Source: Stenotrophomonas sp. SAU14A_NAIMI4_8 (GTDB lineage: Bacteria; Pseudomonadota; Gammaproteobacteria; Xanthomonadales; Xanthomonadaceae). From it: a DNA stretch of 64,000 nucleotides. Location: the NCBI RefSeq assembly GCF_003086695.1, contig NZ_CP025999.1, positions 2,211,680 to 2,275,679 on the forward strand. Reading direction: 5' to 3'. Below, in pieces: positions 7,080 through 30,552 of this stretch. Positions within the stretch are counted from its first letter, which is position 1, and each line of letters starts with the position of its first letter. A program made the translations under genes and the position numbers. A model generated the notes under the pieces. The model saw nothing but the letters and a program-made list of their open reading frames with translations, was not told the DNA's origin and ran no database searches.

Positions 7080-7148
7080 GGATGCAGGTAGTCATATCTC
7101 CCCTGTGCCGGTAACGTGCCAGCAGGCGCGTACGCCCAAGGAGACCTT

Positions 7149-8486: not shown

Positions 8487-8503
8487 ACCAAGGAGCTTTT
8501 TCC

Positions 8504-9586
8504 GTGCGCGCCCTGCCCTACGCCTGCATTCTGCTGTCCTGCCTGTTTGCCCCGCTGGCCTGGGCGGCGGGGCCCTCACCCGCGGTGGGCGAAACCCATG
8601 GCGTGGCGCACACCCCCAGCGCCGCGGTGCGCGATGCCGGGCACAGCGACGCCGTGCGGTATACGGTGTGGTATCCGGCGCAGCCCGGTGTGGGAGAGCA
8701 GCCGCTGGCGATCGGGCCGCCGGGGGAGCCCCTTTTCGTGGCAGGAGCTGCTGGGGTTGATGCCCCCGCTGCGCCGGGCCGCTGGCCGGTGCTGCTGCTG
8801 TCGCACGGCAATGGCGGCAGTGCCCGCATGATGGGCTGGTTCGGCACGGCCCTGGCACGCTCGGGCTACGTGGTGGTTGCGGTTGACCACCCCGGCAACA
8901 ACGGCGTGGACGCCATGACCGAGGCCGGCAGCATCCTGATGTGGAACCGGGCCGATGACCTTGCCGCGGCGTGGGCGGCGGTGCAGGCCGACCCCGAACT
9001 GGCGCCGCATCTGGATGCAGGCCGGCTGGGGCTGGTGGGCTATTCGGCCGGCGGGTTCACCGCGCTGGTGGCGGCCGGCGCACGGCCAGACATGTCCAGG
9101 CTGGCCGCGTTCTGCAAGGCATCGCCGAGGGATGGGGTCTGCCTGCCGCAGGCGGAGAATCCGGGGCTGACCTTTGAGCGGCGGATGGCGGCGGCCGCTA
9201 CGCCGGAACTGGCGCCGTGGGTGGGCAAGTCTGCAGAGGATCGGGCTATTCCAAACGTTCGTGCGGTATTCCTGATGGCGCCGGCAATCGTGCAGGCGTT
9301 CGAGCCGGGCGAGCTTGGGAGGCTGCAGGCGCCGATATCGGTGGTGGTGGGTGAGGCTGATGCGATTGCCTCGGCGGCCACCAACAGTAAGGTGATTGCC
9401 GAGGCGTATGGCAATGCGAGAGTGCAGGTACTGCCCTTGGTGGGGCACTACGATTTTCTGGCGGAGTGCACGGAGCTGGGGCGTAAAGTCGTAGGAACGT
9501 TGTGCGAGGTGAAGGCCGACAAGGTGGAAACGCATCAGGCTGCGATTCAGGAGGCTCGGGTGCTGTTTGAGGGTGCGCTTCGGTAG
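8504..9586 (+). CDS. Exported alpha/beta hydrolase (predicted dienelactone-hydrolase type)
   Basis: About 360 residues with a signal peptide ending LAWAAG. Alpha/beta-hydrolase features are the oxyanion-side HGNGG, the nucleophile elbow GYSAGG (Ser), the acid region VVVGEADAIAS, and the catalytic His in GHYDFL. This matches the predicted secreted dienelactone hydrolases (COG4188 type), whose substrates are mostly unknown. GTG at 8504 was chosen because AAGGAG lies 8 bases upstream; an ATG at 8483 overlapping the AraC stop is the alternative and adds seven residues. A decayed copy of its last 60 codons lies at 14638-14827. Confidence 0.88.
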   Translation: MRALPYACILLSCLFAPLAWAAGPSPAVGETHGVAHTPSAAVRDAGHSDAVRYTVWYPAQPGVGEQPLAIGPPGEPLFVAGAAGVDAPAAPGRWPVLLLSHGNGGSARMMGWFGTALARSGYVVVAVDHPGNNGVDAMTEAGSILMWNRADDLAAAWAAVQADPELAPHLDAGRLGLVGYSAGGFTALVAAGARPDMSRLAAFCKASPRDGVCLPQAENPGLTFERRMAAAATPELAPWVGKSAEDRAIPNVRAVFLMAPAIVQAFEPGELGRLQAPISVVVGEADAIASAATNSKVIAEAYGNARVQVLPLVGHYDFLAECTELGRKVVGTLCEVKADKVETHQAAIQEARVLFEGALR

Positions 9587-9593
9587 GTCGTGC

Positions 9594-9615
9594 AGTCGAG
9601 CAAGCTCGACTCTAC
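9594..9615 (-). repeat. SMAG/REP palindrome
   Basis: Exact copy. The TAG in its GTAG head is the stop codon of the minus-strand gene ending at 9612. Confidence 0.92.
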
Positions 9616-10379
9616 GGATTGGCGGCGGCGCGAACGCGTTCGGCCGCCTCCCGGCTGACGAGGCCTTCAAGGACGTCGGCCAGCTTGGACAGCTGCTCAC
9701 GCCGCAGGCCAATGTTCATGCTGATGCCGATGTGGGACTTCAATTGGGGCTCGACCCCGGACATGGCGGCCAGCATGCTGACGGTAGCCAGCTCGCGGCT
9801 CTGCCAGTCCAGATTGTCGCGCTCGAAGATGTCGCCGAACAGGTGGGTACGCAGGTACTGATTTGCCTGCGGCGCAAAGTCGAACAGCGGCCCGGAGACC
9901 GGTCCACCGGCCAACGTGGTCTGGTTTGCGGTGCCTGCAGCGAGCAAGGCGTCGCCCGTGGGAATGGGCTTGCGCGGCTCGCGGCCGGGGTCATCCTGGA
10001 TACCCTGCTGCCTGCGGGCATCGGCCACCTTCATCAGCTCGCCCAACGCGTTCAAGCTGCGCGGAAACCCGGCATACGCGTAGACCTGCAGCAGGATCTC
10101 GCGCGTTTCAGCCACGCTGAGGCCGGCGTCCAGGCCCTGGTTCAACGCCTGCCGAAGGCCATCGATGTTGCCCGCCGCCGCAAAGGCGCCGATTGGAATG
10201 ATGGCTTGCTGGCGCGCGTCCAGTTCAGTTGTGAAAGCGTGGTTTGCGTTGCTGTTCATGGCTGCTCCTTCGTTTGCGAACGCCATCTGGCCGGGGGCGG
10301 CAGCAAGCATCGCCGCCCCCAGCAGAGTGGCGAGATGGCGGATTCGCGATGTGCGGTCACTTTGCTTCGTACTGGGCAT
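9612..10379 (-). CDS. Exported carboxymuconolactone decarboxylase-like protein
   Basis: A 255-residue protein with a signal peptide (hydrophobic segment ATLLGAAMLAAAP, cleavage near AFANEG) and two CMD-family helical units: residues about 60-125 (LNQGLDAGLSVAETREILLQVYAYAGFPRSLNAL) and about 170-245 ([23 protein letters not shown]). There is no CxxC, so it is not an AhpD-type peroxidase partner. ATG at 10379 lies inside the end of the cupin gene (23-base overlap) with GGAGAAGG just before it, so the two are translationally coupled. In LysR island C the same two domains are joined in one frame. The stop codon is supplied by the GTAG repeat. The reaction is unknown. Confidence 0.88.
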   Translation of the reverse strand: MPSTKQSDRTSRIRHLATLLGAAMLAAAPGQMAFANEGAAMNSNANHAFTTELDARQQAIIPIGAFAAAGNIDGLRQALNQGLDAGLSVAETREILLQVYAYAGFPRSLNALGELMKVADARRQQGIQDDPGREPRKPIPTGDALLAAGTANQTTLAGGPVSGPLFDFAPQANQYLRTHLFGDIFERDNLDWQSRELATVSMLAAMSGVEPQLKSHIGISMNIGLRREQLSKLADVLEGLVSREAAERVRAAANP

Positions 10380-10848
10380 CGGTCACCTTCTCCATCCAGG
10401 TTACGTTCTGGCCATCGCGCACACCGGTAACCGCAAGGTGGGTCATGGCGGTACCGGGGGCAGCGCCATGCCAGTGCTTCACCCATGGCGGGCACCACAC
10501 CACATCGCCGGGACGAACGATCTGGACGGGCTTGCCCCACTCCTGCACGCGCCCAACGCCCGAGGTGATCAGCAGGCGCTGGCCGGCGGGATGGGTGTGC
10601 CACGCCGAACGTGCACCCGGCTCGAACGTCACCAGCCCGCCCGAGGCGGTGATGCCGGCGTCGGCAGGCCAGACCGGGTCGATGCGAACGTTGCCGGTGA
10701 AGTGTTCCGACGGGCCCTGCGTGGAAGGTTGATCCCCGGCCGCCGTGATCTGCTGTTCGGGCGCTGCGGCTCCGGCCGCGTGTGGAAGGCCGAGCAAGGC
10801 CCACAATGAGAGGACCAGGATGCCTCGCACTGATGTTCGCAACAGCAT
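10357..10848 (-). CDS. Exported cupin-domain protein
   Basis: A 163-residue protein with a signal peptide (VLSLWALLGLPHAAGAAA) and one cupin barrel. Cupin motif 1 is seen as PGARSAWHTHPAGQRLLITSGVG (metal-binding His pair HTH) and motif 2 as [19 protein letters not shown]. The ATG has an excellent ribosome site (GTAGGAGGGAGC). It overlaps the CMD gene downstream and probably acts with it in the periplasm. Cupin-CMD pairs occur widely in bacteria, but their substrate is not established. Confidence 0.9.
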   Translation of the reverse strand: MLLRTSVRGILVLSLWALLGLPHAAGAAAPEQQITAAGDQPSTQGPSEHFTGNVRIDPVWPADAGITASGGLVTFEPGARSAWHTHPAGQRLLITSGVGRVQEWGKPVQIVRPGDVVWCPPWVKHWHGAAPGTAMTHLAVTGVRDGQNVTWMEKVTDAQYEAK

Positions 10849-10965
10849 CTCAGCTCCCTCCTACGGTGTGAGCCGGTTCCAGCCCTTTGACGGATGCTTG
10901 GGTGCCCGCGTGATTGATATCCATGGGATTCACCTCGCTGTGGTGGATAGGAGTGCAGCCAACTG

Positions 10966-11313
10966 CTAGAAAGCCTCAATGCGGGCCCTCACCGGCCCCG
11001 CAGCACGAAGGATCTGCAGCCCGCCGTCGATGCGGCCCAGCCGTATAAGGCCCTTTGAATAGCCGAAGGGCTTGTGAAAGATCGCCAGGTTTCCCCATGG
11101 CGCGTAGAAGGCGATATCGCCTGCCATTGGCGTGATGCCCTCCGGCTCGCCGGTCACGCTGAGACGGCGCGGAAGCTGTGCAATCTTTTCGGTCGCCGCG
11201 TAGTCCTCAAGCTGCAGCGTCAGCGGTAGCTGGGCGATGAACTCGCGTGCGGGGATGCTGTCTTCCAGGGTGGCGGTGAGCACCTGATCGCTGATGATGA
11301 TTTTGATTTTCAT
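10966..11313 (-). CDS. Cyclophilin-like fold protein
   Basis: A 115-residue protein starting MKIKIIISDQ, with the cyclophilin-like small-protein pattern: ATLEDSIPAREFIAQLPLTLQLEDYAATEKIAQLPRRLS followed by MAGDIAFYAPWGNLAIFHKPFGYSKGLIRLGRI. It has no signal peptide. Families of this shape often accompany flavodoxins and oxidoreductases, but no reaction is assigned. GGAG lies ten bases before the ATG at 11313; an in-frame ATG at 11352 overlapping the MFS stop (ATGA) is possible. It is the third gene of the operon led by the hydrolase at 13615. Confidence 0.82.
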   Translation of the reverse strand: MKIKIIISDQVLTATLEDSIPAREFIAQLPLTLQLEDYAATEKIAQLPRRLSVTGEPEGITPMAGDIAFYAPWGNLAIFHKPFGYSKGLIRLGRIDGGLQILRAAGPVRARIEAF

Positions 11314-11348
11314 GGAGCGAGACTCCGCAGTGGTCGATGTAGATCGCC

Positions 11349-12560
11349 TCATGAGCCCTGCGCCCCCATGGCGATAGCCGGCCGCGAGGTGGATGCGGCA
11401 TCGCAGGCGGTGACATAAGCCAACAGCGCGGCAAACAACAACAGACCGGCACTGGCCACGAACGTGCTGGCAAAGCCGAAGCCATCGAACAGCAATCCAC
11501 CCAGGGTGGCACCCAGCGCGATGGAGCACTGCACGACAGCGACCATCAGGCCGCCGCCGGCCTCCGCGTTGTCGGTGAAGGTGCGGGCCAGCCAGCTCCA
11601 CCAGCCCACCGGCGCGGCCGTGGCCAGCAGCCCCCATGCCGAGAGCAGTGCAGCCGTCGGCCATAGCCGGGGCCCCAGCAGAACCAACGCCAACGCAATC
11701 AGCGCCATCACGGCCGGAATGCTCACCAGCGTGCGGTACAGACCGCGCTTGATGAATGCTCCAATGGCAAACGTGCCGAGCAATCCACTTGCACCGATCG
11801 CCAAGAGCACCAGCGGAACAGCGCTGTCTGCTGCATGTGTCACGCGTTCCAGGAAGGGCCGCACGTAGGTAAACAAGGCAAACTGCCCCATGAAAAAGGC
11901 ACCGCAGGCCATCATGCCCAGGGCCACCACGCGCCTGCGCAGCAGTGCAAACACCCCGCTTTGTGCGCGCCGCCGTTCTGCGGCCATGGATGGCAGGCCT
12001 ACCCATTGCCACGCAAAGGCCACCGCAGCGACCGGCACCAGGCACAGGAATGCACCGCGCCACCCGATCACACTGCCCAGGTAACTGCCCAATGGCGCCG
12101 CAACCACGGTTGCAAGCGCATTGCCACTGTTGAACATCGCCAGAGCGCGCGGAACCTTTGCCGCGGGCACCAAGCGCATGGCCGTTGCGGCAGACAAGGA
12201 CCAGAAACCGCCGATCACCACGCCAATCAGCGCACGGCCGGCCATGTAGACCGGATAGTTCGGGGCCAACGCCACCACCACGCCCGACACCGCCATCAAT
12301 GCGGTGAGGAACAGCAGCAGCGTTCGCCGGTTGATGGTGCCCGCCAACCGCGAAATCGACAGGCTGGTGAGCACTGCGAACGCACCCGAGATGGCAATCC
12401 CGTAGCCCGCAAGGCCCTCGCTGACCCCCAGATCTTCCGCCAGCGGAGTAAGCAGGCTCACCGGCATGAATTCGGAGGCGATCAACGCGAAGACGCACAG
12501 CGTCATCGCGAACACCCCGCCCCAGTAGGCGCGACCGGCCGTGCTGTCGGCCTGGCTCAT
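11349..12560 (-). CDS. MFS efflux transporter (AraJ/YdhP type)
   Basis: 403 residues with about twelve hydrophobic helices. The Major Facilitator pattern is clear: first helix GGVFAMTLCVFALIASEFMPVSLLTPLAEDLGVSEG, then the loop 2-3 region RLAGTINRR. The FALIASEFMPVSLLTPLAEDLGVSEG signature is that of DHA1-type drug or arabinose efflux proteins. Its ATG overlaps the stop of the upstream hydrolase (ATGA at 12557-12560), and its own stop overlaps a possible start of the cyclophilin-like gene, so the three are coupled. The substrate is unknown; the setting suggests export of the compound handled by the hydrolase. Confidence 0.9.
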   Translation of the reverse strand: MSQADSTAGRAYWGGVFAMTLCVFALIASEFMPVSLLTPLAEDLGVSEGLAGYGIAISGAFAVLTSLSISRLAGTINRRTLLLFLTALMAVSGVVVALAPNYPVYMAGRALIGVVIGGFWSLSAATAMRLVPAAKVPRALAMFNSGNALATVVAAPLGSYLGSVIGWRGAFLCLVPVAAVAFAWQWVGLPSMAAERRRAQSGVFALLRRRVVALGMMACGAFFMGQFALFTYVRPFLERVTHAADSAVPLVLLAIGASGLLGTFAIGAFIKRGLYRTLVSIPAVMALIALALVLLGPRLWPTAALLSAWGLLATAAPVGWWSWLARTFTDNAEAGGGLMVAVVQCSIALGATLGGLLFDGFGFASTFVASAGLLLFAALLAYVTACDAASTSRPAIAMGAQGS

Positions 12561-16663: not shown

Positions 16664-18640
16664 ATGACCCTGCTGCCCCACCCGCTTGCTCTGGCGCTGA
16701 GCGCTACCCTGCTGTCCACCTTTGCCCCGGCCAATGCGCATGAACCGCCCGCCGCGCACGACGACCACCACGATGAGGCCGTGGAGCTGGATGCGGTGAT
16801 GGTGCAGTCAACCCGGTCAGGGCGTCGCGTTTCCGACGAGCCGATCCGGGTAGACGTGGTATCGCAGGAGGAGATCGAGGAAAAGCTGCTGATGTCGCCC
16901 GGCAACATCTCCATGCTGGTGGCCGAAACGGCGGGCGTGCGGGTGCAGAACACCTCGCCGGGCATGGGTGGATCAAACATCCGCATCCAGGGGCTGCGTG
17001 GCCGCTACACGCAGTTGCTGGCCGATGGATTGCCGCTGTACGGCGGTCAGTCATCGTCCATCGGACTGCTGCAGATTCCCCCGACCGACCTTGGCAGTGT
17101 CGAGATCATCAAGGGCAGTGCATCGGCCTTGTATGGCCCAGCAGCGTTGGGTGGCGTGGTGAACCTGATATCGCGCCGACCCAAGGAAACCGCCGAGGCC
17201 GAAATGCTGCTCAACGCCACCAGCCGTGGTGGGCAGGACGTGACGGGCTATGCCGGCGGGCCGCTGACCGACCACTGGGGCCTCTCGGTGGTGGGGGGTT
17301 ACCATCGCCAGGACCGCCAGGATCTGGACGGGGACGGCTGGGCCGACATTCCCGGCTACGAGCGTGCCACGATCCGGCCGCGGTTGTTCTGGGAATCGGA
17401 AAATGGCGCGCGTGCGATGGTGACAGCAGGTGCAACGCGCGAAAGCCGCTGGGGCGGAACCCTGCCCGGTCGCCTGGCGCCCGACGGGCAGCCTTTCGCG
17501 CTGACACAGCGCACGGAGCGCTACGACGCCGGGGCAGTGGTGGATGTTCCAGTGCGCGAGAGCGACCGGCTGCAGCTGCGCGCATCGGCCATGTCCACCC
17601 ATCACGACCACGGGTATGGCCCCTCGCAGGACAGCGACACCCATCAGACGGGTTTTGCGGAAGTGAGCTATGCGTCCGGCGTTGGCGCCACCAGTTGGCT
17701 GGCGGGCATCGCCGCCCAGCAGGACCGGTTCCGTTCTGACCGATATTCCCAGTTTGATTACCGATACACCGTACCTGCCCTGTTCGTGCAGGCCGAGCAC
17801 ACGCTGCGCGATGACCTTACGCTGTCCGGCAGTGCGCGCTGGGATGACCACAGTGCCTATGGCGGGCACTTCAGCCCCCGCCTGTCGCTGTTGTTCCGCC
17901 CTGACCCATGGACTCTGCGCGCCTCGGTTGGCAGGGGCTTCTACGCACCAACGCCTTTCGTCGAGCAGATCGAGGCAGCTGGCCTGTCACGGCTTGAGCC
18001 GCTCTCCGGACTTCGCGCGGAGATTGCTACGACCGGGTCCATCGATGCAGGGTACGTGCATGGCCCCTGGGAACTGAACCTCAGCGTGTTCGCGTCCAAC
18101 ATCGACCATGCGGTACGCCTGGTGGACGCTGCGACCGCCCCAGGTGAGCGCGTGCAGTTGGTCAATGTGGACGGCGTTACCCGCACCCGTGGCAGTGAAC
18201 TTCTGCTGCGCTACCGCTGGCGGGACGTTACGGTTACTGGAAGCTATGTCTACACCGATGCGCGCGAGCCCGGTGAAGCAGGCACCCGCCGGCGCCTGGT
18301 TTCACTCACCCCCCGGCACAGCGCAGGGCTGGTTGCCATGTGGGAGCAGCATGGCCGTGGCCGTGTGGGCCTGGAAGCCTACTACACCGGCATCCAGGCG
18401 CTTGATGACAATCCCTGGCGTCGGCGCAGCCGGCCGTATCTGGAAGTGGGTGCCCTGGGCGAGATTGTGCTGGGAAACATCAGCCTGTTCCTCAACCTGG
18501 AAAACATCCTCAACGTACGCCAGAGCGGCTACAACCCGATGCTGCGGCCTCGCCGCGCCAATGATGGCCAGTGGACGGTGGACGCATGGGCGCCGCTGGA
18601 AGGGTTCGTGGTCAATGGTGGTGTGAGGATGAAGTTCTAG
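16664..18640 (+). CDS. TonB-dependent outer-membrane receptor with His-rich N-terminus, MerR-linked
   Basis: 658 residues. A signal peptide (LALALSATLLSTFAPANA) leads to a metal-ligand-rich start, HEPPAAHDDHHDE. The plug domain follows (VELDAVMVQSTRSGRR as TonB-box area; NIRIQGLRGRYTQLLADGLPLYGG; VEIIKGSASALYGPAALGGVVNLISR), then the 22-strand barrel ending in Phe (NGGVRMKF). The His/Asp cluster recalls the zinc receptor ZnuD. Import receptors for zinc are normally repressed by Zur, yet this gene sits behind a MerR-type promoter that would be switched on by metal. Either the true substrate is a chelate or other compound made under metal stress, or the receptor has another role. Confidence 0.9.
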   Translation: MTLLPHPLALALSATLLSTFAPANAHEPPAAHDDHHDEAVELDAVMVQSTRSGRRVSDEPIRVDVVSQEEIEEKLLMSPGNISMLVAETAGVRVQNTSPGMGGSNIRIQGLRGRYTQLLADGLPLYGGQSSSIGLLQIPPTDLGSVEIIKGSASALYGPAALGGVVNLISRRPKETAEAEMLLNATSRGGQDVTGYAGGPLTDHWGLSVVGGYHRQDRQDLDGDGWADIPGYERATIRPRLFWESENGARAMVTAGATRESRWGGTLPGRLAPDGQPFALTQRTERYDAGAVVDVPVRESDRLQLRASAMSTHHDHGYGPSQDSDTHQTGFAEVSYASGVGATSWLAGIAAQQDRFRSDRYSQFDYRYTVPALFVQAEHTLRDDLTLSGSARWDDHSAYGGHFSPRLSLLFRPDPWTLRASVGRGFYAPTPFVEQIEAAGLSRLEPLSGLRAEIATTGSIDAGYVHGPWELNLSVFASNIDHAVRLVDAATAPGERVQLVNVDGVTRTRGSELLLRYRWRDVTVTGSYVYTDAREPGEAGTRRRLVSLTPRHSAGLVAMWEQHGRGRVGLEAYYTGIQALDDNPWRRRSRPYLEVGALGEIVLGNISLFLNLENILNVRQSGYNPMLRPRRANDGQWTVDAWAPLEGFVVNGGVRMKF

Positions 18641-18646: not shown

Positions 18647-18668
18647 AGTCGAGCAAGCTCGACTCTAC
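18647..18668 (-). repeat. SMAG/REP palindrome
   Basis: Exact copy between convergent genes. TAG of the GTAG head is the stop codon of the minus-strand gene ending at 18665. Confidence 0.92.
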
Positions 18669-19201
18669 GGGCGGGGCTGGTGGATGCGTGCTCGCACGGC
18701 TTCGATCAGCTCGGCCAGGTTGTCGTAGCGCGGCACACCATAGCGGTCGCCGGTGATGTCCAGGTTGCCCTTGCGCCAGAACCCTTCCGGCGCGGCAACC
18801 AGCAGCTTGCCGGAGCGCGCGTAAAGCCCGAATTCCAGCAAGGTGATCGGGCTCTGCGTGCCCGGGGCGAAATACATCAAAACAATGTCCGCCTTTTCCA
18901 GGGCGGCAAGCTCCCACTGCACCTGTTGGCGGAAGTTCGCGTCGCTGTCGCTCGGCTTCCACGCCGGATTCCAGTCTTCCCGCCGCGGGTTGAGCATCAG
19001 TACGCCGTCATCTGCCAGCGCCTGCTGCACCTGTGCCTGCCAATCGCCGGCCTTGCCCATCTCGATGCTGCCGGCCAGGAACACTGTCACGCGGCCATCC
19101 GATGGCGGGAGCGGCGCCGGTGAAGTCACCGTCTGCGAGGGCGACGCCCAGCAGGTCATGGGCACGATCAGGGACAACAGAAAGGCAAGTCGAAGTTTCA
19201 T
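18665..19201 (-). CDS. Exported nucleoside 2-deoxyribosyltransferase-like protein
   Basis: 178 residues. ATG at 19201 starts a signal peptide (MKLRLAFLLSLIVPMTCWAS). The mature part shows the deoxyribosyltransferase-like pattern VTVFLAGSIEMGKAGDWQAQ, LNPRREDW, QVQWELAALEKADIVLMYFAPGTQSPITLLEFGLYA, where the conserved Glu of LLEFG is the family's usual catalytic position. Known members are cytoplasmic and act on nucleosides; an exported copy is unusual. A longer frame upstream to 19423 has no signal-like or conserved sequence. The stop codon is part of the GTAG repeat. Role in the periplasm is unknown. Confidence 0.82.
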   Translation of the reverse strand: MKLRLAFLLSLIVPMTCWASPSQTVTSPAPLPPSDGRVTVFLAGSIEMGKAGDWQAQVQQALADDGVLMLNPRREDWNPAWKPSDSDANFRQQVQWELAALEKADIVLMYFAPGTQSPITLLEFGLYARSGKLLVAAPEGFWRKGNLDITGDRYGVPRYDNLAELIEAVRARIHQPRP

Positions 19202-19304
19202 GGGTAGGCGGTACGGACAGGCAGACGGCATTGTTGCATCTATTGATGACAGCCGAACCGGGTCGGGCGCCCTGCCCCATCCTTTGCCGCATCGAAATTG
19301 CCGG

Positions 19305-19769
19305 TTATTCGCTACCCGGGCCGCACACGGCCAGCCCGACCTTGACGCGTTCCAGCACCGGTAGGCTTCGATAGCTTTCCACCAGCGCGTTGTCTGCGAA
19401 CAGCCGCTCGGCCAGGCGTCCATAGGCTTCCAGGTCAGGCAGCAAGGCGATGAGGATCAACCCGCCGTTGCCGGTGACGTGGTAGCACTGCTGGATCTCG
19501 GGTGCGGCCAGGAAAGCATCCTTGACGGTGCGCACCACGCTGGACTGGTCGCTGACCAGGTGCACTTCTACTACGACCGTAACCAGCGCCCCGACCGCGC
19601 GCGGGTCAACCACCGCGATGTTCCTTTCGATCACGCCGGATTTCATCAGCGCCGCGACCCTGCGCTGTACCGCAGCGGGCGACAGGTTCACCCGCTCCGC
19701 AATCACGCGCTGTGGCGTCAGGTTGTCGTGCTGCAGAATCTGAAGAATGGCGAGGTCGAACTTGTTCAT
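19305..19769 (-). CDS. Lrp/AsnC-family regulator
   Basis: 154 residues. N-terminal HTH (LAILQILQHDNLTPQRVIAERVNLSPAAVQRRVAALMKSGVI) and the C-terminal ligand-binding AsnC domain (VTVVVEVHLVSDQ, IQQCYHVTGNGGLILIALLPDLEAYGRLAERLF). ATG at 19769 gives the normal Lrp N-terminus MNKFDLAILQ. It is divergent from the rhtA-like exporter across about 100 bases, the usual arrangement for an amino-acid-sensing regulator and its exporter. Confidence 0.93.
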   Translation of the reverse strand: MNKFDLAILQILQHDNLTPQRVIAERVNLSPAAVQRRVAALMKSGVIERNIAVVDPRAVGALVTVVVEVHLVSDQSSVVRTVKDAFLAAPEIQQCYHVTGNGGLILIALLPDLEAYGRLAERLFADNALVESYRSLPVLERVKVGLAVCGPGSE

Positions 19770-20811: not shown

Positions 20812-20840
20812 TTGCACCATCGAGATTCATGCTGTATTAA
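20812..20840 (+). promoter_or_regulatory. Candidate promoter of the peptide operon
   Basis: TTGCAC (20812-20817), 17-base spacer, TATTAA (20835-20840), upstream of the first gene of the operon. The match to consensus is modest. Confidence 0.35.
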
Positions 20841-20874
20841 TCACACTCACTCGCACCGAAGGATCGGAACGCAG

Positions 20875-20946
20875 ATGAAGTCACGGATAGACCGGATGTT
20901 CTTCCCAGCTGCAGCACGCAGCCAACTCCATAGCGCCAATTACTGA
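20875..20946 (+). CDS. Possible 23-residue leader or small peptide
   Basis: ATG at 20875 encodes 23 residues starting MKSRIDRMFF and ending HSANY, between the candidate promoter and the ABC gene at 21042. Only GGAAC precedes it, a weak ribosome site. A small hairpin follows (CCACGC at 20957-20962 with GCGTGG at 20970-20975). It may be a regulatory leader, an unmodified peptide, or chance. Confidence 0.25.
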   Translation: MKSRIDRMFFPAAARSQLHSANY

Positions 20947-21041
20947 TTTATCGCGCCCACGCCCTGATCGCGTGGTCGTTGTGCTGTGCAGCAGTCCTGA
21001 GGTAAGCCGATCAAGCCAATCTCGTTGGGGATGCGTTTCCT

Positions 21042-21755
21042 ATGCTAGTGCTTCGCGACGTTAGTAAGCTGTATCGCACGGGAGGTGTGGAAACCACTGC
21101 GCTACGTGCATTCAATCTGCACGTGCACGCGGGTGATTTCATCAGCGTCACCGGGCCGTCTGGCTCGGGAAAATCCACGCTGCTGAACATCATGGGCCTG
21201 CTGGAACTGCCCAGTACAGGCGAATACCTGATCGATGGCGTGCCGTCGCAACGGCTCTCGGACCGCGAGCGTTCGCACCTGCGCAGCGAGAAATTCGGCT
21301 TCGTATTCCAGGGATTCAACCTGCTGCCGGACCTGTCGGTGTTCGACAACTGCGATATGCCGTTGCGCTATCGCCCGATGAGCGCCCGCGAGCGGCGTAC
21401 GCGTATCGAGGATGCGCTGGAGCGCGTCGGCCTTGCATCACGGATGCGCCATCTTCCTTCGCAGCTTTCCGGTGGCCAGCAACAGCGCGTCGCCATTGCC
21501 CGGGCGCTGGCCGGTTCGCCGCGCGTGCTGCTGGCCGATGAACCGACCGGCAATCTCGACAGCCAGATGAGCGAGGAAATCATGGCCATGCTGGAAGGCA
21601 TCAACCAGGCGGGCACTGCAGTGCTGCTGATCACCCATGACCGCGCACTGGCTGCGCGCGCAGACCGCAACATCCGCATTCTGGATGGCATCGCAAGCGA
21701 AATCCGCGCAGGCGATGCGGCCGATATCGCACTCGCCCCGTCCGAACTGGCATGA
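21042..21755 (+). CDS. ABC transporter ATPase (LolD/MacB type)
   Basis: 237 residues with all ATPase motifs: Walker A GPSGSGKST, Q-loop FVFQGFNLLPDL, signature LSGGQQQR, Walker B VLLADEPTGNLDS and H-loop LLITHDRALAARAD. PTGNLDS marks the LolD/MacB/FtsE class that drives mechanotransmission through FtsX-type permeases. It overlaps the first permease by four bases (ATGA). It is the first clear gene of the peptide operon. Within the cluster it may export the product or confer self-protection. Confidence 0.94.
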   Translation: MLVLRDVSKLYRTGGVETTALRAFNLHVHAGDFISVTGPSGSGKSTLLNIMGLLELPSTGEYLIDGVPSQRLSDRERSHLRSEKFGFVFQGFNLLPDLSVFDNCDMPLRYRPMSARERRTRIEDALERVGLASRMRHLPSQLSGGQQQRVAIARALAGSPRVLLADEPTGNLDSQMSEEIMAMLEGINQAGTAVLLITHDRALAARADRNIRILDGIASEIRAGDAADIALAPSELA

Positions 21756-23089
21756 CGATGCCGATGCTCCGCCCTGCCCTGTTCGGCTACTACCTGCGCA
21801 CCGCACTTGCCAGCCTTCGCCGCAACATCCTGTTGACCGCACTGATGATCGGCGCCATCGGCATGGGCATCGGTGCGGCCATGACCACCCTTACGGTGTT
21901 CAAGATCATCAGCAACGACCCACTGCCGGATCGCAGTGCGCGCGTGTTTCATCCGCGCCTGGATGCACAGGGCATGTCGGGTTACGTGCCCGGTGCAGAG
22001 CCGCACGACCTGCTGACCCGCTACGACGCCGAGCAGCTGCTGCGGGACAAGCGTGGCGTGCGGCAGGCCATGATGTACGCAGGCAATGCGGTCGTGCAGA
22101 GCGACGCCGCGGCCGACATGCCGTTCCGGCAGCGCATCCGTTACACCTCGGCTGATTTCTTCCCCATGTTCGCGGTGCCGATGCGCTATGGCCAGGCATG
22201 GAGCGCCAACGAGGATGCGGCCGAGGCTCGCGTGGTGGTACTGGGCAGCGCGCTCAACCAGCGCCTGTTCGGTGGTGCCAACAGTGTGGGCAAGCGCCTT
22301 CGCATCAACGATCAGGAATTCAGCGTGATCGGCGTGGCGGCGCCGTGGCACCCCCGGCCCACGTTCTACGACCTCAACCGTGACGGCGGGTTCGCCGAAC
22401 AAGAACAGCTGTTCATGCCATTCGCCACATCGCGTGCGCTGCGGATGGGCTTCGCCGGCAATCTCGACTGCTGGGGTCCGATCGACAAGGACACCGGGCA
22501 GCTCGGCCTGAACGCCCCCTGCGCATGGGTGCAGTACTGGGTGGAGCTGTCCAGTGCGCAGGACGCGGCCGACTACCGCACCTATCTGGAAAACTACTCA
22601 AGCCAGCAGCGCCAGCGTGGTCGTTTCGAGCGCCCGGTCAATGTCCGCCTGGACAACATCCCCCAGTGGCTTGACTACAAGCGCGTGGTGCCCAGCGATG
22701 TGCGGCTGCAGACCTGGCTCGCTTTCGGCTTCCTGTTCATCTGCCTGCTCAACACCACTGGCCTGTTGCTGGCCAAGTTCCTGCGCCGGTCGCCGGAGAT
22801 CGGCCTGCGCCGGGCGCTGGGTGCGCCGCGCAGTGCTGTGTTCCAGCAGTGCCTGGTCGAGGCAGGCCTGATCGGCATGGGCGGTGGGTTGCTGGGACTG
22901 CTGCTGGCCTGGTGCGGCCTGTGGCTGGTGCGCCAGCAGGCCGCCGGCTATGCCGCGCTGGCAGGAATGGATGCCAGCACCCTGCTTGGCACGTTGGCAC
23001 TGGCGCTGCTGGCCAGCCTTGCAGCGGCGGTGTTTCCCGCCTGGCGCGCGTGCCTGGTGGCACCGGCCAGCCAGTTGAAGAGTCTGTGA
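21752..23089 (+). CDS. FtsX/MacB-type ABC permease 1
   Basis: 445 residues. A first membrane helix (LLTALMIGAIGMGIGAAMTTLTVF) precedes a large periplasmic MacB-like core domain (residues about 50-300), then three C-terminal helices around SPEIGLRRALGAPRSAVFQQCLVEAGLIGMGGGLLGL, the FtsX domain signature. It is coupled to the ATPase gene by a four-base overlap and followed after four bases by a second permease, so the working transporter is likely a heterodimer. Confidence 0.92.
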   Translation: MTMPMLRPALFGYYLRTALASLRRNILLTALMIGAIGMGIGAAMTTLTVFKIISNDPLPDRSARVFHPRLDAQGMSGYVPGAEPHDLLTRYDAEQLLRDKRGVRQAMMYAGNAVVQSDAAADMPFRQRIRYTSADFFPMFAVPMRYGQAWSANEDAAEARVVVLGSALNQRLFGGANSVGKRLRINDQEFSVIGVAAPWHPRPTFYDLNRDGGFAEQEQLFMPFATSRALRMGFAGNLDCWGPIDKDTGQLGLNAPCAWVQYWVELSSAQDAADYRTYLENYSSQQRQRGRFERPVNVRLDNIPQWLDYKRVVPSDVRLQTWLAFGFLFICLLNTTGLLLAKFLRRSPEIGLRRALGAPRSAVFQQCLVEAGLIGMGGGLLGLLLAWCGLWLVRQQAAGYAALAGMDASTLLGTLALALLASLAAAVFPAWRACLVAPASQLKSL

Positions 23090-23093
23090 GCCC

Positions 23094-24326
23094 ATGACCG
23101 ATATCGCCCCCATCCTTGCGGCACTGCGCCGCCACAAGATCATTGCGTGCCTGGTGGTGCTTGAGATCGCCTTCACCTGTGCGGTCATCTGCAATGCCGG
23201 CTTCCTGATCGTCGAGCGCATCGAGCGCGTGCAGCGCCCCTCGGGCATGGCCGATGACATGCTGGTGCGGCTGCAGCTCAGTGCGGCCAAACGTGGCGAT
23301 CAGGACGCCCTTGCACAGACGCGCACCGATCTGGCCGCGTTGCGCGCGATCCCCGGCGTTCAGTCGGCAACGGTGATCAGCCAGATTCCCTTCGGCGACT
23401 CTTCTTCGAACAGCGGCGTGAATCTGCGCCAGGACCAGGAAACGCCAACCCTGGATGCATCGGTCTATCTGGCCGGCCCCGATGCGCTGCCCACGCTTGG
23501 GCTGACCTTGGTGGGTGGTCGGGACTTCACCGCCCACGATTACATCGACTGGGTGCCCGGCACCAACCCGGGGGAACTGAATATTCCCGCGGCGATCATC
23601 ACCCAGGCCATGGCCGAGCGCTTGTTCCCGGGTGAAAGCGCGGTGGGCAGGCAGTTCTACAGCTGGGGTGGCGAGCCGACGCGGGTGGTGGGGGTCGTGC
23701 AACGGCTTACCCGCCCCAGCGAAACCGATGATCCCAGCGACATGGACTACTCGATGCTGTTCCCGGTTGCAGTTCCCTATACCAGCGGCGCCAACTACCT
23801 GCTGCGTGTGGCGCCCGGGCAACGCGAGACCGTGCTGGAGCAAGCGACGGCAGTACTGCGCCAAAGCGGGCCGCCGCGCATCCTGGGGGTGAACAACGGC
23901 ACGATCGAGGCCCTGCGCGACCGTTACTACCGCAATGACAAGGCCATGGCGGGGCTGTTGGCGCTGATCTGCGTCCTGCTGCTGGCCATCACCGCCACGG
24001 GCATCATCGGGCTGGCCAGCTTCTGGGTGCAGCAGCGCACACGGTCGATCGGTATCCGCCGCGCACTGGGCGCAACGCGGCTGCAGATCCTGCGCTACTT
24101 CCAGACCGAGAACCTGCTGCTGACGCTGCTGGGCTCGCTGTCCGGCGCCATGCTGGCGGTGGCGCTGAACCTGCTGCTGATGCAGTTCTACGAGGTTCCC
24201 CGGCTCCCGCTGGGCTACCTGCTGCTGGGCCTTGCCGTGCTGGTGCCGCTGGGCCAGCTCGCCATTCTCCACCCCGCCCTGAAGGCCACGCGGGTGGCAC
24301 CGGCCACCGCCACCCGCAGCGCCTGA
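23094..24326 (+). CDS. FtsX/MacB-type ABC permease 2
   Basis: 410 residues, same layout as the preceding gene: N-terminal helix (IIACLVVLEIAFTCAVICNAGFLIV), a periplasmic MacB-like domain, and C-terminal helices with TRSIGIRRALGATRLQILRYFQTENLLLTLLGSLSGAMLAV. With the ATPase at 21042 and permease 1 it completes a heterodimeric MacB-like transporter. No membrane-fusion protein gene lies beside these three. It is followed by 160 bases before the precursor gene. Confidence 0.92.
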   Translation: MTDIAPILAALRRHKIIACLVVLEIAFTCAVICNAGFLIVERIERVQRPSGMADDMLVRLQLSAAKRGDQDALAQTRTDLAALRAIPGVQSATVISQIPFGDSSSNSGVNLRQDQETPTLDASVYLAGPDALPTLGLTLVGGRDFTAHDYIDWVPGTNPGELNIPAAIITQAMAERLFPGESAVGRQFYSWGGEPTRVVGVVQRLTRPSETDDPSDMDYSMLFPVAVPYTSGANYLLRVAPGQRETVLEQATAVLRQSGPPRILGVNNGTIEALRDRYYRNDKAMAGLLALICVLLLAITATGIIGLASFWVQQRTRSIGIRRALGATRLQILRYFQTENLLLTLLGSLSGAMLAVALNLLLMQFYEVPRLPLGYLLLGLAVLVPLGQLAILHPALKATRVAPATATRSA

Positions 24327-24487
24327 ACTCGGATTCCGCCCGTGCCGCAGCCGCGGCATGTGGCGACAACGCGCACGCACCGGGTGCATCTGCCCGGTTG
24401 CTGCGAAAGGTCGGCGCAGGATAAGCCGGCACGAAGGAAGTAGAAGGAATGAGAAGTTCCAATCAACGTCAAGACAATGGAGGTTTC

Positions 24488-24700
24488 ATGGATAGCAAGC
24501 TCAAAGGGTTGGCCGATCGTCTGAAGTCCCGGATCGACGGTGCTGCAACGCCCTTGGTTGGTGCCAGCGACATGACGGATCTGATCGACGCCCATCTGGA
24601 CCTGGTCAGCGCCGCCCACGGCTCGGGTCATACCTCGGGTCACAAGTCCGGCCATGCTTCGGCCGGCACGGGTGACAGCGAGGTGGAGATCAAGGGCTGA
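24488..24700 (+). CDS. RiPP precursor peptide with tandem H-x-S-[GA] core
   Basis: 70 residues from ATG 24488, behind a clear GGAGG. Residues 1-43 look like a leader: charged helix MDSKLKGLADRLKSRIDG, then DLIDAHLDLVSAA. The positions before Ala42-Ala43 fit the double-glycine leader pattern (Leu at -12, Leu at -7, Val at -4), with AA instead of GG. The predicted core starts at His44 and reads HGSGHTSGHKSGHASAG: four tandem H-x-S-[GA] units with His at 44, 48, 52 and 56, then an acidic tail ending EVEIKG. The neighbours are a radical SAM maturase, a HExxH enzyme and a C39 exporter, the expected machinery for a modified exported peptide. It resembles in concept the F-x-S and H-x-S precursor families but has a four-residue period. 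Not known to me by name. Confidence 0.8.
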   Translation: MDSKLKGLADRLKSRIDGAATPLVGASDMTDLIDAHLDLVSAAHGSGHTSGHKSGHASAGTGDSEVEIKG

Positions 24701-24720
24701 TTTCAGTTGGTCTGACGTCT

Positions 24721-24746
24721 GGGCACCGGCGGTTTCGCCGGTGCCC
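24721..24746 (+). terminator. Hairpin between precursor and maturase genes
   Basis: Perfect 11-base stem (GGGCACCGGCG / CGCCGGTGCCC) with a GTTT loop, 20 bases after the precursor stop and 75 before the radical SAM start. There is no long T tract, so it is probably a partial terminator or mRNA-stabilising stem that lets the precursor be made in excess over the enzymes. Confidence 0.75.
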
Positions 24747-24820
24747 TCTCACCCGCAGCGCGCTCATGACAGGCCAGTACGGACGGCCTGATCCACAGCG
24801 CAGCCACAGGAAGTGCGCGA

Positions 24821-26044
<1,224 letters not shown>

Positions 26045-26061
26045 CTCTGCGGAGATACTCG

Positions 26062-27267
26062 ATGGACGTGTTCCGCGCTTTATCGACACCGTTGGAAGGA
26101 GACCACCGCTGGCTGGCCGCAGAGTTGGCGACGCTGCATTACGCGGCGTTCTGCAAGCGCGTGATCGACCGCAAGGGCGGCGGTGATCACGCAGCGCTGG
26201 CAGCCGAACTGTTGGCGCGGGTCAGTGCCCGGGCCCCGTCGCTGGGCTACTGGACACCGGAGGCCAGCCTGGTCTTCGCGGGCATCAAACCGCCCGGCGC
26301 GGTGCCCGGACATATCGCCAGCGACGACTGGCTGCGCGCCCAGCTGCTGTTGAGCGGGATTGCCGTAGGCGTGCTGGATGACCTGAGCCTGCAGTTCGAC
26401 GTGGACGATCCACTGCTGCTGTGCGGGCGCAGCCTGCCGGGGCGGCTATCGGTGCGCGCTGCGGGCCGACGGATCACCGTGCGACTGCCCGATGGCGGCC
26501 ATCTGCACTGGTCCGCAGTGGGTGAGCGCGATGGAGCACCCGTCTGGAACGACGAACGTGCGCCCGACACCTTCGTGATGCTTGGCGGTCAGCCGGCTAT
26601 CCGGCTGACCGGCTCGGGCTGGCATGAAAGCCCGTGGATCCGTGACACCTTCAGAGTGCAGGCACCCACGCCGGAGATGGCCCCCCAGGTGGCATCGGCT
26701 CTGGCATTGCTTGAGCGCGTGGCCCCGGCCCATGCCGCTTGGGTGTGCAGCGTATTGAAGGAGATCACGCCGCTTGGCCGGCCAGCAGCCAATACGATCG
26801 CCAGCAATTCATCGGCACTGCGCATGGGCGGCATCGATCTGGCCGTGCCCGCCGATGCATTGGAGACCGCCGAAATGCTGGTGCACGAGTGCACGCACCA
26901 GTACTTCCACATGGCCAGTTGGCTGGGCCCGACGGTGGTCCCCGAAGCCGGCTCGTACTATTCGCCCCTGAAGGGCTGCCATCGCCCCCTGGACCGCATC
27001 CTGCTGGGGTACCACGCCTTCGGCAACGCGATGATGGTGTTCGACCGTCTGGCGGCCGACGGCCTGCAGGCCGATATCCAGGTGCGCTGGGAGACGGTGT
27101 CGGGTTATCTGCGCGAGCTCGCCGTTCCGCTGCGCGATGGGGAGGAACTGAGTGAGCTGGGCCAAGCCTTGTTCGATCCGCTGCGGTCCCAGTTGGCCAC
27201 GCTGGAATATCCCGGTCCCCGCCCGACGGTCGGGGCTGTTTCTGACGCGGTGCTTGAACGCGCATGA
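26062..27267 (+). CDS. HExxH-motif peptide-modification protein (proposed aKG-HExxH beta-hydroxylase type)
   Basis: 401 residues from ATG 26062 behind GCGGAGA. The metal motif HECTH lies at residues 275-279 (EMLVHECTHQYFHM), followed by EAGSYYSPLKGCHRPLDRILLGYHAFGNAMM, a pattern of the HExxH putative peptide-modification family found beside, or fused to, FxsB-type radical SAM proteins. Members were long annotated as inactive proteases and have since been described as alpha-ketoglutarate-dependent peptide beta-hydroxylases. No signal peptide. Both HExxH histidines and the Glu are present, so it should bind metal. Hydroxylation of a core His, Asp or other residue is the working guess. Confidence 0.85.
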   Translation: MDVFRALSTPLEGDHRWLAAELATLHYAAFCKRVIDRKGGGDHAALAAELLARVSARAPSLGYWTPEASLVFAGIKPPGAVPGHIASDDWLRAQLLLSGIAVGVLDDLSLQFDVDDPLLLCGRSLPGRLSVRAAGRRITVRLPDGGHLHWSAVGERDGAPVWNDERAPDTFVMLGGQPAIRLTGSGWHESPWIRDTFRVQAPTPEMAPQVASALALLERVAPAHAAWVCSVLKEITPLGRPAANTIASNSSALRMGGIDLAVPADALETAEMLVHECTHQYFHMASWLGPTVVPEAGSYYSPLKGCHRPLDRILLGYHAFGNAMMVFDRLAADGLQADIQVRWETVSGYLRELAVPLRDGEELSELGQALFDPLRSQLATLEYPGPRPTVGAVSDAVLERA

Positions 27268-27291
27268 GTACTCCCGACAGGAAGCGGGCCG

Positions 27292-27777
27292 ATGCGCCCT
27301 GATCCTCTGCACAACCGCCCGTTCTTCCGGCCAGAGGCGGAGGCGTACCGGCGCTTCCGCCACCTGGGTGCCATTGCCCTGTTCAGGCCACTGCCGGTGC
27401 GGCTGCTGGCCGTGGTGCCGCTGATCGCATTGGCCGTGGCCGGCATGGCGGCGGTGTCGCTGACGCTGGTGCCCCGCGCGGAGCTGCGGTCCGCGGCGTG
27501 GGGGGGCACGGCGGGCGTGCATCTGGTGATCGATTCGGACAAGGCACCGTACTTTCACACAGGTGACGAAATAGAACTGCTGCGCGACAACCAGATACAG
27601 GGCGTGGCGCGGATCGAGGCCATCGTGCCGATGGTCTGCCCCACCGGGTCCAGTGGCACTGGGCGAGGCCATTGCCTGCAGATCCGTGCGCGCAGCCACG
27701 CCTCGATCGCACCGGGCACGCCGCTACCCACCAGTGTGCGTGGCGCGCCGCGCCGCTATCTGCTATCCAGAGTATGA
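27292..27777 (+). CDS. Very short HlyD/RaxA-like membrane fusion protein
   Basis: 161 residues. The N-terminus FFRPEAEAYRRFRHLGAIALFRPLPVRLLAVVPLIALAVAGMAAVSLTLVPRAE is that of HlyD/RaxA-type adaptor proteins for C39 exporters: short cytoplasmic part and one membrane helix. The usual long coiled-coil hairpin that reaches the outer-membrane channel is absent; only a small beta-barrel-like region remains (VHLVIDSDKAPYFHTGDEIELLRDNQIQGVARIEAIVP), about 160 residues against the normal 400. Genes on both sides are closely packed and the frame is intact, so it looks like a true mini-form. It likely assists the exporter 10 bases downstream without spanning the periplasm. Confidence 0.72.
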   Translation: MRPDPLHNRPFFRPEAEAYRRFRHLGAIALFRPLPVRLLAVVPLIALAVAGMAAVSLTLVPRAELRSAAWGGTAGVHLVIDSDKAPYFHTGDEIELLRDNQIQGVARIEAIVPMVCPTGSSGTGRGHCLQIRARSHASIAPGTPLPTSVRGAPRRYLLSRV

Positions 27778-27786
27778 CTGTCCGAT

Positions 27787-29916
27787 ATGAAATTCCGCGC
27801 ACGTAGCGTTCCGATGATCTACCAGGCAGAGAGCAGCGAATGCGCGCTGGCGTGCCTGGCCATGGTGGGCGCCAGCCATGGCATGGACATTCCGCTGCTG
27901 GAATTGCGCGAGCGCTTCCCGATCTCGCTGAAGGGGTCGACCCTGCGCGACGTAGTCGAACTGGCCGACAAAATGCAGCTGGCCGCGCGCTCACTGCGTT
28001 GCGAGATGGCTGATCTGCCGCGCCTGCAACTGCCCGCGCTGCTGCACTGGGATTTCGAGCACTTCGTGGTGCTGGTGGCCATCAGTGGTGACACGGCGAT
28101 CATCCACGATCCCGCCCACGGCGTGCAGCACCTGCGGCTGGCCGAGGTTTCGCACCACTTTACCGGCATCGCCGTGGAGCTCACGCCCCGCCCTGCCTTT
28201 GCGGTACAAAGGGTCGACAAGCGCTTCACGCTGGCGGCGCTGCTACGCACCAGCCGCGGGGTATTCGGCTACGTCGGCCAGGTTCTGTGGATCACGCTGT
28301 TCCTTGAGCTCTTCGCCCTGCTCAGCCCGTTGCTGTTGAAGACCGTGATCGACACCGGGCTGGCGCACCGGGACATGGATTTCATCACCGCAATCACGGC
28401 GGGCTTTGCCGGTGTCGCACTGCTGCATGGCATGGTGGCGTTGGCACGTGACTACGTGCTGCTGCACTTCGGCACCCGCTTCAATGCCCAGTTCATGGGC
28501 GCGCTCATCCAGCGCATGATGCGTCTGCCACTCGGCTTCTACAGCAAGCGCTGCATTGGTGACCTGGTCGACAGGTACCAATCCACGAATGCGATCCGGC
28601 AGACGTTGACTGGTGCCCTGCCGCGGGTGCTTCTGGACGGGCTCATCGCGCTGGCCGCGCTGGGCATCATCGCGGCGATCTCGCCGCCCATGGCCGGCAT
28701 CGCACTGGCCACGTTCCTGATCTATCTGACCGCCAGACTGTGCCTGTTCCAGCGCACGCGTCGGTTTGCAGAGGATGCCGTGAAGGCGCGCTCGGAGGAA
28801 AACTCGCATGTGATCGAAACCCTGCGTGGCATGCAGCCGATCAAGATCTTCGCCAAGGAGCACGAACGGCTGGGGGCATGGACCAACCACTACAGCCGGT
28901 TGGTGAATGCAGACATGCGCGCAGGCATCATGGCGTCCGCGCAGGGCGCCGCCAAGGTCACCCTGCTTGGGCTGGACATGGCCGCCAGTGTGTATGTGGG
29001 CGCCCTTCTGGTGGCCAACGGCAGCATCAGTCTGGGCTTGCTGTTCGCGCTGTTCGTGTACAAGGCGCACTTCGCCGCCAAGGCAATGGCACTTGCAGAG
29101 CAGGTGATGGAACTGCGCCTGGTCGGCCTGCACATGGACCGGCTTTCCGAGATCGCCGTTTCGCCGATCGAGCAGGACCCGGCCGACAGCCGTGGGGTTC
29201 CCGAGGCTGCCCGGTACGATTTCCGCATCGAACTGGACGGTATCAACGCCCGCTTTGCGCCGCAGGAAAAGCTGGTGCTGCGCGATGTCTCGCTGAAGGT
29301 ACAGCGCGGCGACTTCATCGCCCTGACCGGACCTTCCGGCAGTGGCAAGACGACGTTGTTCAAGGCATTGCTGGGCCTGTTGGATCTGGAGTCCGGGCAG
29401 ATCCGCCTGAACGGCGAGGACATTCAAGGCTACGACCTGCAGCAGTACCGCCGCCTGTTCGGCGTGGTGATGCAGGAGGACATGCTGCTGACCGGCAGCA
29501 TCCTGGACAACATCGCATTCTTCACCTCCAGCCCGGATGAAACGCGGGCCCGCCAGTGCGCACAGACGGCGTTGATCCTGGACGACATCGATGCAATGCC
29601 AATGAAGTTCAACAGCCGCATCGGTGACCTGGGTTCCGCGCTGTCGGGCGGCCAGAAGCAGCGGATCCTGCTGGCCCGCGCGCTCTATCACGAGCCCCGC
29701 ATCCTGCTGCTGGATGAAGGCACGGCCAATCTGGACGAAGCGTTGGAACGGCGATTGCTCGACAACCTGGTGGCCTTGGGTATCACCTGCGTTTCCATTG
29801 CCCATCGCCCGGAAACCATCCGGCGCGCCAATCGTGTTTACCACGTGGAGGCAGGCACGGTGCAGCAACGCGCTGTGGCGTCGCCCTCCCCCGTGATCCC
29901 CTGCGCCATCCATTGA
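27787..29916 (+). CDS. C39-peptidase-containing ABC exporter (RaxB/CvaB type)
   Basis: 709 residues in three parts. The C39 peptidase (residues 1-130) has catalytic Cys19 (SSECALACL), oxyanion Gln13, His92 (EHFVVLV) and Asp108 (HDPAHG), so it appears active. A six-helix membrane domain spans about 160-430. The ATPase has Walker A GPSGSGKTTL, signature LSGGQKQR, Walker B ILLLDEGTANLD and H-loop IAHRPETIRR. Such proteins cut double-glycine-type leaders and export the core. The precursor at 24488 has a matching leader. No outer-membrane channel gene is nearby. Confidence 0.95.
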   Translation: MKFRARSVPMIYQAESSECALACLAMVGASHGMDIPLLELRERFPISLKGSTLRDVVELADKMQLAARSLRCEMADLPRLQLPALLHWDFEHFVVLVAISGDTAIIHDPAHGVQHLRLAEVSHHFTGIAVELTPRPAFAVQRVDKRFTLAALLRTSRGVFGYVGQVLWITLFLELFALLSPLLLKTVIDTGLAHRDMDFITAITAGFAGVALLHGMVALARDYVLLHFGTRFNAQFMGALIQRMMRLPLGFYSKRCIGDLVDRYQSTNAIRQTLTGALPRVLLDGLIALAALGIIAAISPPMAGIALATFLIYLTARLCLFQRTRRFAEDAVKARSEENSHVIETLRGMQPIKIFAKEHERLGAWTNHYSRLVNADMRAGIMASAQGAAKVTLLGLDMAASVYVGALLVANGSISLGLLFALFVYKAHFAAKAMALAEQVMELRLVGLHMDRLSEIAVSPIEQDPADSRGVPEAARYDFRIELDGINARFAPQEKLVLRDVSLKVQRGDFIALTGPSGSGKTTLFKALLGLLDLESGQIRLNGEDIQGYDLQQYRRLFGVVMQEDMLLTGSILDNIAFFTSSPDETRARQCAQTALILDDIDAMPMKFNSRIGDLGSALSGGQKQRILLARALYHEPRILLLDEGTANLDEALERRLLDNLVALGITCVSIAHRPETIRRANRVYHVEAGTVQQRAVASPSPVIPCAIH

Positions 29917-29931
29917 ACAAGGAGTTGTTTC

Positions 29932-30552
29932 ATGGGCTTACGACGTATTGCTCCGCGCGCGCACAATCGCTCCGATCAGGTCGATCTGTTCATGCGCCTG
30001 TGGGACGTGCCACTGGATGATGCACAGATGCGCCACATCGGGGAGCATGCCCCCATTTCGCAGAAGCGCTCGATCTTCGGCAACATGAATCACGAAGGCG
30101 CACCGTACCCCGCCAGCAGTTGCCTGGCCTCTCGCTTCCATCCCGATTTCCTTGCCGTGGTGGAGCCCGGTGTGCGCGACTTCCTGGTGGCCATTGCCGT
30201 GGACCACAACCTGGTGACGTATACCAGCTGCGAAGGCCATGACTACCGGCCCGATGGCCGGCGCCCGGACGAGCGCCACGTCGGTCTGATCCCGCGCAGC
30301 GCCGAGGAGAGCGCCCGGGCGATCGCGGTGTTCGAGGCGGTGGGCCGGACACTCAATGCCATGCCCGCCTCGCCTGCCGTGGAGGTGGCGTTGATGCTGA
30401 ACGAGGTGCATGACGGGCAAGCCGTCTATCCCACCATCGACCTCTATCTGAGCAAGCACGCCGATGCGGACTGGGACGACTACTTCGCGGGCGTGGACAT
30501 GGCGACCGCGCAGCTGGTTGCCGCGTTGGAGAGCGAGCAACCGATTGCCTGA
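29932..30552 (+). CDS. Unknown protein, last gene of the peptide operon
   Basis: 206 residues, soluble, no signal peptide, strong ribosome site (AAGGAG) 10 bases before ATG, 15 bases after the exporter. Notable conserved-looking patterns are GAPYPASSCLASRFHPDFLAVVEPGVRDFLVAIAVDHNLVTYTSCEGHDY, HVGLIPRSAEE and TIDLYLSK. The SCEGHDY segment with Cys, Glu, His and Asp could be a metal or catalytic site. I do not recognise the family. Position and spacing place it in the peptide operon, so modification, immunity or regulation are possible. Confidence 0.8.
   Translation: MGLRRIAPRAHNRSDQVDLFMRLWDVPLDDAQMRHIGEHAPISQKRSIFGNMNHEGAPYPASSCLASRFHPDFLAVVEPGVRDFLVAIAVDHNLVTYTSCEGHDYRPDGRRPDERHVGLIPRSAEESARAIAVFEAVGRTLNAMPASPAVEVALMLNEVHDGQAVYPTIDLYLSKHADADWDDYFAGVDMATAQLVAALESEQPIA

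Follow-up and report, generated by a model that had tools for sequence, protein, structure and literature searches.

A candidate triceptide-type RiPP operon of Stenotrophomonas with tandem H-x-S units in its precursor peptide

Introduction

Rings in which a radical SAM enzyme ties the C2 atom of His to a C-beta have been described for HaaB and ScaB, where the partner is Ala (C2(His)-Cbeta(Ala)), and for YhhB, where it is Arg (C2(His)-Cbeta(Arg)), and a Phe-Ser ring is formed by MscB (PMC11002830). In the passages of this review that concern His, the rings end on Ala or Arg and not on Ser, which counts against a His-Ser ring. For ChlB/ChlH, it has already been published that a HExxH protein hydroxylates His and Asp of a cyclophane peptide, and the published passages on PflC/PosC indicate that other outcomes exist in aKG-HExxH proteins. 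Furthermore, repeats of the type (Y/H)-N-R have been found beside a radical SAM enzyme, a putative aKG/Fe oxidase and a putative peptidase (Cluster 41), and the corresponding passages also cover the His-Xaa-Ser group (HxsB/HxsC), which is putatively matured by radical SAM enzymes (PMC9062424).

The operon described here is located in the window, i.e. the whole stretch of 64,000 nucleotides from Stenotrophomonas sp. SAU14A_NAIMI4_8 that was analyzed. With XyeA/XyeB it shares a precursor gene followed by genes for a radical SAM enzyme, an HlyD-type adaptor (in our case a possible one) and a peptidase-containing ABC exporter, a GG-type leader and an aromatic-x-polar core, but the XyeA core ..SGGWVNVFARWDKAI contains Trp and Phe in place of His, and the 9 kb covered around the XyeB locus contain no match to the HExxH protein or to the 206-aa protein (p206) of our operon. 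As described for HaaB, YhhB and ScaB, the radical SAM enzyme is proposed to tie His C2 to a C-beta, but the partner would be Ser, and the score against YhhB (NF041707) is 200 bits versus a cut-off of 445. The likeness to ChlB/ChlH lies in the enzymes, a cyclophane synthase and an aKG-HExxH beta-hydroxylase, although both domains are fused in the described protein and encoded by separate genes here. Cluster 41 has His repeats and a similar set of putative enzymes in common with our operon but Arg instead of Ser at position 3, and HxsB/HxsC share the H-x-S motif, but our enzyme does not reach the HxsB family and there is no second radical SAM protein among the nine operon proteins.

As C2(His)-Cbeta rings, a Phe-to-Ser ring, HExxH hydroxylation and (Y/H)-N-R repeats had already been published, the original prediction of a new RiPP system, which was made from the sequence of this DNA, went too far. 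The literature passages cited here, to which the triceptide survey does not belong, describe no His-to-Ser ring, no class of tandem H-x-S precursors served by a separate enzyme branch and no partner like p206. A literature search returned no title or abstract opening on such an operon or on a TYW3-like RiPP enzyme; the H-x-S group may figure in the triceptide survey.

Results and Discussion

The operon comprises nine genes on the + strand (21042-30552), which is also the strand of all features below, and they encode an ATPase, two MacB/FtsX permeases, a 70-aa precursor, a radical SAM protein, a HExxH protein, a 161-aa membrane protein, a C39 exporter and p206. With a 19-kb segment surrounding the L004 copy from S. 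rhizophila as BLASTN query and the window as subject, we identified one block at 21024-30518 with 78.3% over 9,554 columns, and at E 1e-8 this segment had no similarity to any other part of the window. Because there is only one block and it reaches into the p206 gene, the whole cassette (21024-30552) is, judged from this comparison, a unit of transfer that includes p206. The conserved block had been expected to start at 20812, but the comparison with S. rhizophila places its start at 21024, and it ends in the 206-aa gene. The 161-aa protein, p206 and a hairpin downstream of the precursor gene had not been part of the original prediction. A TonB receptor (16664-18640) sits outside the conserved block. 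Within the genus, the radical SAM enzyme was detected in 3 of 91 genomes (E 1e-60 or better) and p206 in the same three; a fourth genome (G022) contains a distant radical SAM relative with 31%.

The precursor gene (24488-24700) starts with an ATG at 24488, which is preceded by a GGAGG site, and the 70-residue product carries the four predicted H-x-S-[GA] units starting at His 44, 48, 52 and 56. Four tandem H-x-S units at a period of four were not recovered in any of 200,000 shuffles of the precursor's own residues, and three units in only 4 of 200,000, so the predicted repeat is well founded. The putative core HGSG-HTSG-HKSG-HASA plus a tail (24617-24697) would begin with His44, directly behind a site of the double-glycine type (..LDLVSAA|H). 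For these 27 residues the calculated monoisotopic mass is 2586.181, which would become 2578.118 with four rings, 2642.098 with four additional hydroxyls, or 2634.181 if four methyls accompanied the rings. In comparison with L004, dN is 0.12 and dS 0.85, and the His and Ser codons differ synonymously.

Homologues of the precursor were found among public genome and metagenome proteins (P0129-P0134) and in S. rhizophila L004, Stenotrophomonas Ste86 L005, G618, Citreicoccus L006, G1022, a Verrucomicrobia MAG (L007) and Myxococcota G1303 (L118). Ten distinct cores with 36 units have Ser (35) or Asp (1) at position 3, ten residue types at position 2 and mostly Gly or Ala (29/36) at position 4, with His at position 1 by definition of how units were counted. 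Adding L118 (HSSY HQNN HSSS) by hand results in 11 distinct cores and 39 units with 37 Ser, one Asp and one Asn at position 3. Tandem His units were present in all eight His-branch genome loci read (the window, L004, L005, L006, L007, L101, L102 and L118). Some of the relatives' precursor ORFs were chosen by motif, which introduces a bias towards the pattern, but this choice is supported by a leader end common to the candidates, [HY]-L-[DE]-x-[IV]-[SA] ahead of the small residues GG, GA or AA. Among 211 radical SAM matches, 120 of which were listed, precursors were read for a minority. In P0134 the units read H-G-S-C, with a Cys in the spacer.

The radical SAM/SPASM peptide maturase (24821-26044) was correctly predicted, and the cysteines C20, C24 and C27 of its CxxxCxxC motif are invariant across 39 relatives. 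XyeB (TIGR04496) is the closest NCBI family with 282 bits, followed by YhhB (200), FxsB (179), the anaerobic sulfatase maturase TIGR03942 as fourth-best (145) and HxsB (TIGR03978, 73). Among the families scored, the enzyme stays below all curated NCBI cut-offs, including those of the XyeB equivalog (450 bits) and of HxsB (370 bits), and its best solved relative by sequence is the cyclophane synthase ChlB (9gm3). On the level of sequence, it is therefore kin of the three-residue cyclophane enzymes but not an equivalog, and together with the aromatic-x-X motif in the precursor core this is the combination seen in triceptides. When 23 radical SAM sequences were placed in a maximum-likelihood tree, the 10 enzymes whose precursors carry tandem His units fell on one side of a branch with a support of 97/94, although two of these (P0040 and P0046) were labelled via a presumed pairing with the precursors P0132 and P0133. 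The tandem-His label requires a single change on this tree, a value reached by none of 500 shuffled labellings, and the His branch spans three phyla.

The downstream gene (26062-27267) encodes the predicted HExxH protein, an aKG-HExxH-type enzyme with the motif HECTH at residues 275-279. It reaches at least 40 bits against TIGR04267 and has a ChlH-like fold, the closest folds being ChlH and SjiH. The accessory set varies between loci, as L118 has three HExxH matches and the 9 kb surrounding a XyeB have none, and this counts against the pathway proposed below.

Both predicted transport systems are present. A DarD/LolD/MacB-like ABC transporter ATPase (21042-21755; NF038007 DarD, 239.5 bits, below the cut-off of 375) and two MacB/FtsX-type permeases (21752-23089, PF12704 77.9 bits and PF02687 51.1 bits; 23094-24326, PF02687 47.4 bits and PF12704 41.2 bits) form the MacB-like part at 21042-24326. 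The ATPase matches that of L004 at 76% and that of L005 at 62%, and no close copy was found in L101. The C39 peptidase-containing ABC exporter (27787-29916) matches PF03412 (106 bits), PF00664 and PF00005, with 420 bits against TIGR03796 (cut-off 853), and the C39 domain is accompanied by a hydrophobic leader that ends in a small-residue pair, as in double-glycine leader/C39 pairs. Next to the exporter gene, the 161-aa membrane protein (27292-27777) is conserved in L004 (51%), L101 (45%) and L005 (35%) and has no Pfam match; judged by eye, it is possibly a shortened HlyD-type adaptor.

Gene content, conservation, folds and the transfer as a unit can be read from the sequences, and from these data we consider it fairly probable that the locus is a triceptide-type RiPP operon with His-Ser rings, HExxH hydroxylation and C39-dependent cleavage and export. 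We infer a pathway in which the leader (..DAHLDLVSAA) guides the XyeB-like radical SAM enzyme, which would couple the His imidazole to the Ser beta-carbon at i+2 and thereby produce up to four consecutive small rings with one small residue between them. The aKG-HExxH enzyme would then hydroxylate the ringed peptide, most likely at the His beta-carbons, and p206 may attach a further group in this branch. Finally, the C39 exporter would cleave after Ala-Ala (Ala43) and export a product beginning with the ring-bearing His, and the MacB-like genes could serve as an efflux or self-protection pump. The rings and the hydroxylation had also been proposed in the original prediction, and they gain indirect support from the XyeB-like radical SAM protein, the ChlH fold of the HExxH protein and the conserved His and Ser at positions 1 and 3. 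A combination of His-ring chemistry and HExxH hydroxylation on one regular repeat would allow ring count, direction and reaction order to be read from one small peptide.

The product is most likely a secreted competition peptide, and metal binding is the main alternative. Four regularly spaced imidazoles with a predicted N-terminal His would suit a peptide that mainly binds a metal such as copper instead of being antibacterial, and noursin, a His-cross-linked RiPP, binds copper. This role is compatible with the chemistry proposed above, but we regard it as somewhat unlikely, given that none of the six block genes with a family match is a metal-linked regulator or uptake gene and that the TonB receptor lies outside the block. 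In any case, consecutive imidazole rings that start from a free N-terminal His would make an uncommon scaffold for binding metals or targets.

The last gene of the operon encodes p206 (29932-30552), which resembles Taw3 in motif and may do so in fold and is thus a possible Taw3/TYW3-like enzyme, but no match to TYW3 (PF02676, cut-off 27 bits) was obtained for any of 16 family members (Pfam, E up to 10, filters on, the two fused domains left out). This previously unrecognised protein may be a new kind of peptide-modifying enzyme. An immunity or regulatory function is the less attractive explanation and in our opinion unlikely, as a homologous domain is fused to the C-terminus of a radical SAM protein encoded by two plasmids of actinomycetes (L112 and L113), both of which also carry a HExxH gene and a gene for a small H-x-S peptide near the fusion. 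Taw3 and TYW3 are tRNA methyltransferases acting on the nitrogen-rich wyosine ring. It is conceivable, albeit speculative and on balance doubtful, that p206 founds a RiPP tailoring class descended from these enzymes, which would act alongside the ring-forming radical SAM enzyme, or as a part of the same protein, and methylate imidazole nitrogens in the His-Ser cyclophanes. In the mature peptide, successive His-Ser rings would then be both N-methylated and hydroxylated, and p206 would bring an enzyme family into RiPP chemistry. The fusion to radical SAM, the H-x-S peptide and the HExxH gene offer a handle to search for more p206 systems.

The strongest case for a link between positions 1 and 3 comes from the candidate precursors outside the His branch, because their aromatic-x-polar motifs form a continuum: Y-x-Q plus one H-x-Q and one Y-x-M (L014), Y-x-[MQ] every five residues (L015), Y-x-R and H-x-K (L013), Y-x-Q with H-x-K (L009 and L012), F-x-K / F-x-R / H-x-S (L008), H-x-Q / H-x-S (L090), H-x-K and F-x-K (L017) and F-D-R / F-N-K repeats (L018), alongside W-V-N and F-A-R in XyeA. 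The spacing alternates between four and three in XyeA and L018, and of all candidate cores read, only those of the His branch keep a constant spacing of four through at least three units, so the four-residue period is indeed distinctive. Rings on some units only, or a radical SAM reaction of a different kind (epimerisation, for example, or a link other than i/i+2), would fit the variation in unit number from 3 to 4 and the exceptional units H-Q-N in L118 and H-L-D in L007, but with a regular period and both residues conserved in nearly all units we think this improbable. Even less credit is due to the idea that the enzyme oxidises each Ser to formylglycine, as anaerobic sulfatase maturases oxidise Ser, or makes another Ser-centred change, with His used for recognition or metal binding: the sulfatase maturase score of 145 bits and 4k36-4k39 among the solved relatives point in this direction, and a mass shift cannot decide since ring and Ser oxidation both result in -2.016 Da, but the scores for XyeB, YhhB and FxsB exceed that for the sulfatase maturase, the best structural relative by sequence is ChlB, and the ring is favoured because the relatives' candidates frequently have Q, K, R, N or M at position 3 yet retain an aromatic residue at position 1.

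An additional feature between the precursor and the radical SAM gene is an 11-bp hairpin (24721-24746), which is likely a partial terminator. In each of the six gaps folded (window, L004, L005, L101, L006 and L102, with the L007 gap left out), the corresponding position holds a stem of about 10-13 bp, whose sequence differs in the five relatives. The hairpin probably raises the level of precursor mRNA above that of the enzyme mRNA.

Additional precursors and neighboring genes

The precursor homologue P0134, which was found by protein search, has a core in which the H-G-S-C unit occurs twice and H-P-S-N once, with Cys occupying the spacer position, and its tail is longer. Three HExxH matches are located in a single cluster of locus L118 (approximately 3748-11709; genome G1303, Myxococcota), and the precursor of this cluster ends C-terminally in NHSSYHQNNHSSS, with the units H-S-S, H-Q-N and H-S-S and His at four-residue spacing. 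Repeats based on residues other than His were found in a candidate precursor from Asticcacaulis (L015, 8660-8905) with Y-x-[MQ] repeats at five-residue spacing, a locus in which no HExxH match was detected, and in one from a Gemmatimonadetes MAG (L018, 3441-3674), which has repeated F-D-R and F-N-K motifs and adjoins a radical SAM and an HExxH gene. Within the genus, the Stenotrophomonas genome G022 harbors a separate, distant XyeB-like cluster (L003) with a candidate Trp precursor (1271-1426) ending in GGDGGWVKVGPIEPAVNQLS.

On linear actinomycete plasmids, a radical SAM protein is fused to a C-terminal domain resembling p206, the 206-aa protein of the transferred block (L112, 5756-7651; L113, 5771-7657), and HExxH genes and small H-x-S peptides are found in the vicinity of both fusions.

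Upstream of the transferred block, and not part of it, the window encodes a TonB-dependent receptor (16664-18640) and a nucleoside deoxyribosyltransferase-like gene (18665-19423); a 1,697-aa open frame is located at 51289-56382 on the minus strand.
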